DNA from: an uncultured Acidobacteriota bacterium
GTDB taxonomy: Bacteria > Acidobacteriota > Vicinamibacteria > Vicinamibacterales > UBA2999
Length of the DNA stretch: 32,774 bases
Assembly: GCA_902826065.1 (NCBI GenBank)
Contig: CADEDM010000034.1
Location: 1-32,774 of the forward strand
Direction of reading: 5' to 3'
The translations under genes were made by a program, and so were the position numbers. The notes below the pieces were generated by a model. It had not been told where the DNA came from. It worked only from the letters and a program-made list of their open reading frames with translations, and ran no database searches. Shown here piece by piece: positions 3,171 through 5,232 of the stretch. The number at the start of each line of letters is the position of its first letter. Position 1 is the first letter of the stretch.

Positions 3171-3641
3171 CTATGAGAAGCCGATCCAGCGGCCGGCGGC
3201 GGCCACGATGACCCACAGCGCGATCGAGGTCGCGCCGGTCATCGCGGCGATGCCGCGTGGCGTGGTCTCGGACTCGGCGACGCGTTGACGCACGAAGAAC
3301 GTGAAGCCGAGGGCGATCGGCAGCGTCAGCATCTTCACCCAGAACGACGGGCTGTAATAGCACTTCACCGCTTCCGAGAGGAACAGCGGCACGCCCGTGA
3401 GGAACATCACCACGACGGCGGCGATGAGCCACGGCCGCGTGTGCGTGGCCAGTGCCTGCACCGGCGTGCCGACGAGTCCGCGATTCAGCAGGCGCAGGTC
3501 CACGAGCAGCACGGCGCCGCCCAGCAGCGACAGCCCGAGCAGGTGCACGGCCTCGATCACCGGAAACAGCCACACCGACTCGCGCACCATCAGCCCGAGG
3601 CCGGTCGACTCCAGCGACTCGAAGAGCGGCAGCAGCTCCAT
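3171..3641 (-). CDS. DUF6644-like integral membrane protein (156 aa)
   Basis: The ATG at 3641 lies two bases after the TAG of the upstream gene (TAG-TC-ATG), so the pair is translationally coupled. The protein has about four membrane segments: near residues 20-46 (with an EAVHLLG motif inside the first helix), 66-90, 95-115 and 130-150. The first helix and the following VDLRLL motif match the upstream paralogue (ESAHVL, LDLRLL), so this is a tandem duplication that has diverged. The conserved histidine in the first helix could bind heme, but that is inference. The genes share a promoter region with a cytochrome c'-like gene, which points to respiratory or redox membrane work. Confidence 0.75.
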   Translation of the reverse strand: MELLPLFESLESTGLGLMVRESVWLFPVIEAVHLLGLSLLGGAVLLVDLRLLNRGLVGTPVQALATHTRPWLIAAVVVMFLTGVPLFLSEAVKCYYSPSFWVKMLTLPIALGFTFFVRQRVAESETTPRGIAAMTGATSIALWVIVAAAGRWIGFS

Positions 3642-3643
3642 GA

Positions 3644-4210
3644 CTACTGCGGCTCGGCGCCCGGCACGATGCAGCCGGCGGCCCAGTTCACGAACGCCGA
3701 CTGCGGCTGGATGTCGCAGTCGAACCAGTTGTAGGCCATCATGCGCCCGGCCACGATCACGGCCGTCCACGCCACCAGCGAGACGATCGCGGCCACCTTC
3801 GCGGCGCGCGGCGGCGTCGGCGCGGTGTCCCACGCCGCCACGCCGTGATGCGTGCGGCCGTGGAACCACCAGATGTTCAGGCCGGCCACGATCAGCAGCA
3901 GCACTTTGATGCGGAAGAACAGGTTGAAGTAGTAGCGGACCGGATTGGCGAACACGAGCGCCACGCCGGTGATCGTCATGATGGCGAACGCCACGCGCGT
4001 CCACGGCAACAGGCGTTCCGTGAACTCGGTGGCCGGCACGCCGCGGAAGCCGATGCCCAGCAGCCGCAGGTCGAGCATGGCCGCCGTGCCGGCGAAGAGC
4101 ATCAGGGTCAGCACGTGGGCCGACTCGAGGAAGGGCCACAGGAGCAGGGACTCGCGCAGGGCGATGCTCGACGGCAGATCGCCCATCCATCGGGCCCACG
4201 ACAGCAGCAC
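3644..4210 (-). CDS. DUF6644 family integral membrane protein (188 aa)
   Basis: The sequence fits the family closely: an amphipathic start, ALRESLLLWPFLESAHVL, MLDLRLLG, a LLPWTR turn, an IKVLLLIVAGLNIWWFH helix, and a final GRMMAYNWFDCD block. About five membrane helices are visible. I chose the GTG at 4210 because the family normally has about 20 residues before the ALRESL motif and because a TATACT -10 hexamer ends 6 nt before it, which would make the mRNA leaderless. The ATG at 4186 is the alternative. It is followed after two bases by its paralogue at 3641. Function is unknown. Confidence 0.75.
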   Translation of the reverse strand: MLLSWARWMGDLPSSIALRESLLLWPFLESAHVLTLMLFAGTAAMLDLRLLGIGFRGVPATEFTERLLPWTRVAFAIMTITGVALVFANPVRYYFNLFFRIKVLLLIVAGLNIWWFHGRTHHGVAAWDTAPTPPRAAKVAAIVSLVAWTAVIVAGRMMAYNWFDCDIQPQSAFVNWAAGCIVPGAEPQ

Positions 4211-4216
4211 GCCGAG

Positions 4217-4226
4217 AGTATATGCT
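4217..4226. promoter_or_regulatory. Overlapping divergent -10 elements in a 22-bp intergenic region
   Basis: On the minus strand TATACT occupies 4222-4217, six bases before the GTG at 4210. On the plus strand TATGCT occupies 4221-4226, six bases before the ATG at 4233. The two hexamers overlap by two bases and together explain almost the whole gap between the divergent genes. Initiation at the usual distance would fall on the first base of each start codon. A weak -35 for the plus direction (ACGACA, 4198-4203, spacing 17) lies inside the minus gene. Neither start has a Shine-Dalgarno sequence. Confidence 0.6.
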
Positions 4227-4232
4227 CGCGCG

Positions 4233-4730
4233 ATGCGAATCGCCGTCGTCGCCGCGCTCGTGGCTGCCGGTCTCGCCGCCACCGCACGCGCGCAGACCGC
4301 ACCGCCGCCGGCCCCTGCGCGGCCAGCCGCGCCGGCCGCTTCTCCCGCACCGGCGTTGCGCACCGTGGCCACGATGAGCGAACTGATGGTGCACATGATC
4401 CGGCCGACGTCGGACGCCGTGTTCTACATCACGAGCCGCACGCCGCAGACGCCCGAGGCGTGGGAGATCCTCGAGACGCAGACGCTCACGCTCTCCGAGG
4501 CTGGCACGCTGCTGATGCTGCCCACCCACGTCCGCGGCCGCGCGCAGTGGCTGACCGACGCGCGGCTGATGCGCGACGCCGGCCGCAAGGCCTTCGAGGC
4601 GGCGACGAAGAAGGACGTGGCGGCGCTCGAGGCGCTCAACGACGAGCTCTACCAGTCGTGCACGCAGTGCCACGAGCACTTCCGTCCGGGCTACGGCAAG
4701 CGTCCGCCGGTGGACGGCGCCCGGCACTGA
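4233..4730 (+). CDS. Cytochrome c'-like monoheme protein (165 aa)
   Basis: The ATG at 4233 opens a signal peptide cleaved at ARA|Q (about residue 20), followed by a Pro/Ala linker. The body is helical and ends with CTQCHEHFRPGY, a single CxxCH heme-binding motif near the C-terminus. That position and the surrounding Phe-Arg pattern match four-helix-bundle cytochromes of the c'/Cytochrom_C_2 type. The periplasmic protein probably carries one covalent heme; which small molecule or redox partner it meets cannot be told. It resembles the convergent gene at 4762-5232 (ITES/TLSEAGxLLML and CTxCH blocks), so they are paralogues. Alternative: an uncharacterised CxxCH family with the same fold. Confidence 0.8.
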   Translation: MRIAVVAALVAAGLAATARAQTAPPPAPARPAAPAASPAPALRTVATMSELMVHMIRPTSDAVFYITSRTPQTPEAWEILETQTLTLSEAGTLLMLPTHVRGRAQWLTDARLMRDAGRKAFEAATKKDVAALEALNDELYQSCTQCHEHFRPGYGKRPPVDGARH

Positions 4731-4761: not shown

Positions 4762-5232
4762 CTACTGCGCCGGCTGCACGTTCGGCCGCGTGATCTCCGG
4801 CGAGTACTTGGCGTGGCAGGCCGTGCAGACCTCGTAGACCTCGGCGCCGACGTCGAAGACGGCCTGCGGGTCGTGCGACGCCGCCGCCTTCACCGCTTTC
4901 TCGCCGACGTCGACGAGCTGTCGCGACAGCTGCATCCACTCGCCGCCGTCCTTCGGCCGCGGCCCCAACATCAGCAGGTTGCCCGACTCGGTGATCACGT
5001 AGGCGTGATTCACCAGCGCGTCCCACTCCTCGTTGGTCTCGGGCCTGATGTCCCAGGTGCCGCTGGCGTCGATGATCGTGCCAACGCCGTCCCAGTACTC
5101 GTCGGCGGCCGGCTCGACGACCGACTTCATCAACTGCTTCACGTCGGCGACGTGGCGGAATGGCGGCGGGGCCGGACCGCCGCAGGCCGCGGTGCCGAGG
5201 GCGAGAGCGAACGCGAGGACGACGCGGGACAC
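4762..5232 (-). CDS. Cytochrome c'-like lipoprotein (156 aa)
   Basis: Read from the GTG at 5232, the protein begins MSRVVLAFALALGTAAC, a compact lipoprotein signal with the lipid-modified Cys at residue 17, followed by a Pro-rich tether. The helical body ends with CTACHAKYSPEI, a single CxxCH heme motif close to the C-terminus, as in cytochrome c'. The segment YVITESGNLLMLGPRPKDGGEW parallels LTLSEAGTLLMLPTHVRGRAQW of the convergent gene. ATG codons at 5241 and 5244 are possible starts, but they lie inside a perfect TATGAT -10 box ending 7 nt before the GTG, so a leaderless GTG start is preferred. It is probably anchored in the outer or inner membrane facing the periplasm. Confidence 0.75.
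   Translation of the reverse strand: MSRVVLAFALALGTAACGGPAPPPFRHVADVKQLMKSVVEPAADEYWDGVGTIIDASGTWDIRPETNEEWDALVNHAYVITESGNLLMLGPRPKDGGEWMQLSRQLVDVGEKAVKAAASHDPQAVFDVGAEVYEVCTACHAKYSPEITRPNVQPAQ

Follow-up and report, generated by a model that had tools for sequence, protein, structure and literature searches.

The window, that is the whole stretch of 32,774 nucleotides that was analysed, contains two divergently oriented genes, which begin with a GTG at 4210 on the minus strand and with an ATG at 4233 on the plus strand and leave only 22 bp between them. The window corresponds to contig 34 of a 5.65-Mb assembly made up of 416 contigs, and among named records its closest relatives are Acidobacteria MAGs. 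Read directly, positions 4208 to 4235 are CAC GCCGAGAGTATATGCTCGCGCG ATG. On the minus strand the predicted -10 hexamer of the DUF6644 gene pair, TATACT (4222-4217), is separated by the six nucleotides CTCGGC from the GTG (4210-4208), and on the plus strand the predicted -10 hexamer of the cytochrome c' gene, TATGCT (4221-4226), is separated by the six nucleotides CGCGCG from the ATG. The hexamers overlap by the TA at 4221-4222 and together make up a putative symmetric promoter core, AGTATATGCT (ANNNTANNNT; 4217-4226), to which both sequence and conservation point. Because the two hexamers share this TA, the predicted transcription starts at 4210 and 4233 are 23 bp apart. An earlier sequence-only reading had given the coordinates, the hexamers, their overlap and the length of the gap correctly to the base.

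Direct reading of the 22 bp revealed no Shine–Dalgarno sequence at a usable distance; a GAGAG at 4214-4218 lies 14 nt from the ATG. The earlier reading had also placed the -35 element of one of the two promoters inside the opposite gene. This is true for one promoter, but the count was wrong: with a spacer of 16-18 bp both -35 regions would lie inside the opposite gene. Their quality is poor, the best match being 4/6 on the plus side and 2/6 on the minus side. A conserved -35 element was found on neither face, and a sigma-70 scan requiring a -35 element detected no promoter at the gap.

The minus strand gene (3644-4210) starts with GTG and encodes a DUF6644 membrane protein of 188 amino acids, here called DUFa. 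Directly downstream on the same strand lies the gene for a second DUF6644 protein, DUFb (3171-3641). DUFa and DUFb exceed the gathering score of PF20349 (48 and 88.2 bits, respectively, versus 27), and their order is kept among the compared relatives; DUFb is probably in one operon with DUFa. The structure model of DUFa is a confident helical membrane bundle (pLDDT 86) with no significant fold match among the solved structures in the PDB, and a literature search, which was partial in coverage, found no mention of DUF6644. The position of the DUFa start codon is backed by homology. In three congeners the codon homologous to GTG 4210 is an ATG, in G033 and G027 the start is a GTG one codon further up, and the ATG that lies within the gene at residue 9 has not been conserved as ATG.

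The plus strand gene (4233-4730), P1, encodes a secreted protein of 165 amino acids with a signal sequence and the haem motif CTQCH close to the C terminus. As its PF01322 score is under the gathering score (22.2 versus 26.5 bits), we name the protein cytochrome c'-like. PF01322 is matched by 18 of the 19 aligned proteins, with an E value of 6e-6 for the best homologue, and the residues C143, C146 and H147 are invariant. According to its structure model P1 would be a four-helix bundle with a C-terminal CXXCH, as is cytochrome c'; the model is like Kusta0087/0088 and cytochrome c' (Z 14.2-11.3), with helical bundles generally scoring high. In congeners the protein begins with MRI from the ATG, and a signal sequence is present in all. 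The gene order comparison further shows P2, a cytochrome c'-like lipoprotein paralogous to P1, whose gene (4762-5232, minus strand) converges with that of P1. The apparent start of P2, ATGATG (window 5245-5230, minus strand), falls within a -10-like TATGAT, and a GTG 7 nt later (5232) opens the lipoprotein-type signal VSRVVLAFALALGTAAC. Judged from these sequences, P2 probably begins without a leader at this GTG. Near its start, TATGATGCCCGGCGTG is conserved in congeners. The plasmid records searched contained no match.

We then asked how common leaderless-type starts are in this genome. The counts were made on 1.2 Mb of this genome (G000; 70% G+C) and 0.4 Mb of G005, using a gene finder seeded with amino acid frequencies. 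In the 1.2 Mb of this genome, TANNNT hexamers precede an in-frame ATG or GTG at distances of 6, 7, 8, and 9 nt in 42, 34, 15, and 22 cases, as compared with about six at other spacings, so the peak is at 6 nt. Expressed per gene, 112 of the 1012 predicted genes have such a hexamer at 6-9 nt versus 21 at the control distance of 16-19 nt, which is about five times the background. G005 behaves likewise (56 versus 13 of 335 genes). A Shine–Dalgarno peak coexists with the TANNNT leaderless peak in this genome. About a tenth of the genes are of the leaderless type, in agreement with the average of 13% leaderless genes published for Acidobacteria (PMC3160421). TATACT and TATGCT both recur as leaderless hexamers in this genome, TATACT being among the commoner ones, and on both sides of the gap the TANNNT hexamer stands at 6 nt, an enriched spacing. 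Because this spacing is enriched genome-wide and both hexamers are commonly used, the predicted leaderless expression of either gene singly is ordinary in this genome. For annotation this is a gain, as the -10 spacing can fix start codons in such genomes.

The combination of the two faces was examined with the pattern CAY-N6-ANNNTANNNT-N6-RTG, which has one match in the whole 5.65-Mb genome, at this gap. Since the reversed control also matches once, the pattern by itself is not persuasive evidence against chance; conservation across relatives, as judged from their sequences, is more than chance. The core AGTATATGCT is identical at all ten positions in the congeners G002, G003, and G004 and is present as AGTATAAACT (8/10) in G033 and G027, which represent two other genera. 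The core, both of its hexamers and the gene order have thus been preserved together in six genomes from three genera, next to flanks that have diverged to identities of 59-78% on the DUF6644 side and 38-55% on the cytochrome side; the six loci probably have one origin and are not six independent cases. TATACT is invariant in all six loci with this gene order, and the plus hexamer differs in its middle, T, A, and the terminal CT being retained (TATGCT versus TAAACT). Poor conservation of the hexamers under a kept gene order, which the sequence-only reading had named as an observation that would speak against it, was looked for in the relatives and not found. Across the six loci the plus spacing is 6, 6, 6, 6, 8, and 8 nt and the minus spacing is 6 (GTG), 9, 9, 9 (ATG), 7 (GTG), and 9 nt (GTG), so that in the relatives it ranges from 6 to 8 nt on the plus side and from 7 to 9 nt on the minus side. 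Only the present genome shows the exact 6/6 symmetry. On the minus side leaderlessness in the strict sense is not conserved, since four relatives, including one with a GTG start, have a spacing of 9 nt there.

The distance between starts in bidirectional promoters is most often 18 bp, and 10 and 23 bp are also common (PMC12825309). The gap has the makeup of the 23-bp class, with -10 elements overlapping on opposite strands and predicted starts at 4210 and 4233. Double-leaderless 23-bp patterns are modestly enriched in the class, with 259 matches versus 182 in the reversed control among 193 genomes and 77 versus 41 within the family, where the pattern controls read AT for TA and probably overstate chance. 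The 18-bp double-leaderless version had no apparent enrichment over its control when compared by eye. Thirty matches were retrieved from other genomes, and in about eight of them the reading frames to the left and to the right of the pattern are convincingly coding. One such 23-bp pattern is conserved in two genomes of one genus (L153:1501 and L155:1501; G077 and G079) between glycogen-synthase-like and KsgA-like genes, names that were read from the N-termini. In the present genome a second overlapping -10 pair, CACGCGGAGAAATGATACCGTCCCAGCCGTG, occurs with spacings of 8 and 7 (L047:1754-1784, contig 14 of G000). This second pair separates a YbaK-like protein from a putative esterase, both named by sequence reading.

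Two leaderless genes on one symmetric -10 had been called extreme. This holds for the exact 6/6 spacing, which is rare, but not for the arrangement as such: similar pairs with coding sequences on both sides occur in the class, this genome has another overlapping pair, and the csoR-cueA promoter pair is published. Our literature search, again with partial coverage, found no case of two leaderless genes on one bidirectional core. Three findings support the central proposal of the reading, two predicted promoters that are opposed, overlap in their -10 elements and are essentially leaderless: the hexamers are conserved, leaderless-type genes form a class throughout the genome, and the geometry agrees with the 23-bp class.

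How the two genes came to lie back to back can be approached by comparing relatives. In the genus g2 and in another family, P1 orthologues are located at other sites, and DUF6644 genes are not alongside in the loci read. Nearly all P1 orthologues have a TANNNT hexamer 6-8 nt before the start (exceptions are L191, L192, and L195). As this also applies to orthologues at unrelated sites, the cytochrome face is, by this comparison, the older one. The g2-type P1 promoter is GGTGTTAGACT. In the other family (L147, L184-L190, L196) the -10 of P1 is TATTATA, which is symmetric in the 18-bp configuration, with TATAAT on the opposite strand. The A that gives the opposite-strand -7T is present in six of six divergent loci versus 2 of 17 P1 promoters outside, near-duplicate loci being left out and the counts uncorrected for shared ancestry; among the leaderless-type promoters of this genome 15 of 113 have it. 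In g2 and in G014, P2, DUFa, and DUFb are arranged in this order on one strand and P1 is absent between them, whereas in the divergent clade P1 is inverted between P2 and DUFa, with its end adjoining the end of P2. The P1 tree unites the cytochromes of the divergent loci in a single group (80/92). In the DUF6644 tree the operon-type G014 is placed, with weak support, inside the divergent group, and therefore one would have to assume a loss or some more complicated course of events. From gene order and promoter sequences we tentatively propose a promoter capture, to which we give somewhat less than an even chance: a leaderless gene would have inserted into an operon in inverted orientation, one substitution or a few of them would have given its promoter symmetry, and the orphaned DUF6644 genes would now be driven leaderlessly from the reverse side of the same -10. 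If true, this would be a natural example of a one-way promoter turning into a two-way promoter.

Taken as a whole, the gap is likely to be one bidirectional promoter of the 23-bp class, leaderless or nearly so on both sides, which would have taken over the DUF6644 pair. We infer the firing of both faces, the exact start positions and the history of the locus from gene order and sequence. ANNNTANNNT would act as a single bidirectional core of the housekeeping type that RNA polymerase can melt in either orientation. Rightward transcription would begin at or next to the ATG at 4233 and yield the cytochrome c' mRNA, and leftward transcription would begin at or next to the GTG at 4210 and yield the DUFa-DUFb mRNA. 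Neither mRNA would have a leader, apart from 0-3 nt on the minus side in relatives, and translation would follow the leaderless route of roughly one in ten genes of this genome. An older leaderless cytochrome c' gene would have come to lie inverted within the P2-DUF6644-DUF6644 series, its entry would have cut the DUF6644 pair off from the upstream gene, and the back of the P1 promoter, made symmetric, would have taken over this pair. A partner regulator would be unneeded, and the only coupling expected between the two genes would be steric exclusion under strong activity of one side. Although the core has room for one polymerase at a time, the mutually exclusive or balanced expression suggested in the sequence-only reading is possible but not supported, because basal firing is too rare for competition in E. 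coli: five of five bidirectional promoters tested were too weak basally for polymerases to compete, and competition emerged only when one direction was strongly activated (PMC12825309).

We considered several alternatives to this bidirectional promoter. The cytochrome face could be the sole real promoter, with TATACT as its by-product; the DUF6644 genes would then be transcribed by read-through or from a start within the cytochrome gene. Bacteria commonly have promoters inside genes, and this explanation would also agree with the greater age and wide distribution of the cytochrome -10 and with a minus spacing that varies from 6 to 9 nt. However, these spacings are the very ones enriched genome-wide, and TATACT is the hexamer that stayed invariant in the six loci, whereas the plus hexamer has altered in its middle positions. 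Moreover, P1 promoters with no DUF6644 gene next to them seldom possess the outer A, which supplies the -7T of the minus strand. We therefore regard a promoter that serves the cytochrome gene only as unlikely.

Alternatively, the near-palindrome could be the operator of a dimeric regulator placed over a weak promoter pair, and the regulator would then explain the conservation. The core is indeed a 10-bp palindrome with one mismatch, and in csoR-cueA an operator covers the overlapping -10 boxes (PMC5057107). Against this, no dyad extends past the 10 bp already explained by the overlapping hexamers, no recognisable regulator gene adjoins the locus, and AGTATANNCT, found six times in the genome versus three times in the reversed control, is not clearly enriched; we hold an operator to be quite improbable. 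That the gap is a chance AT-rich spacer and both transcripts begin elsewhere would fit the expectation of about one exact pattern per genome, as given by the reversed control. But the core is conserved across genera and the hexamers are consistently placed at an enriched spacing. By its conservation the chance spacer is largely refuted, and we consider it hardly credible.

The predicted bidirectional promoter can be compared with several known systems. In the bacterial bidirectional promoters described by Warman, Grainger and colleagues (PMC12825309, PMC10268837) a near-symmetric -10 is likewise usable both ways; those of the 23-bp class share with the gap the distance between starts, predicted in our case, and weak -35 elements. 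They are known from mapped starts, whereas the starts at the gap are predicted and would coincide with the start codons. The TANNNT leaderless genes (PMC3160421; Deinococcus-Thermus, PMC12340547; Mycobacterium, PMC3898074) resemble both sides of the gap in their spacing of 6-9 nt and in having no Shine–Dalgarno sequence, but they are usually described singly, whereas here two would use one core. In csoR-cueA of Bradyrhizobium liaoningense divergent genes also have partly overlapping -10 elements, and the csoR mRNA has been mapped as leaderless (PMC5057107). Unlike the predicted arrangement at the gap, only this side is leaderless, the other having a 42-nt leader, a CsoR operator lies over the promoter, and one of the paired genes encodes a repressor (PMC5057107). 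We regard the gap as a compact instance of two types of gene start that are already known, and as no new type.

If the bidirectional reading is true, -10 symmetry and leaderless translation fit into 22 bp for two transcription units and are conserved across genera. The relatives would then form a before-and-after set, comprising the leaderless cytochrome gene alone, the operon without P1, and both fused back to back, by which the origin of a bidirectional promoter becomes testable by swapping a few bases.

Two further groups of sequences were observed among the short divergent patterns. Recurring near-palindromic sequences of the CATGCAATCATGCTATCATGC type fit the 23-bp pattern in several genera (G125, G128, G097, G121) and could represent another promoter or operator that is conserved in its own right. 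CATCCATCTAATATAGCGCCATG and CATGGGGATATCATAGTCGGATG resemble genus-conserved candidates for the 18-bp double-leaderless arrangement (G111, G127, G128, G129; G099, G101-G103).
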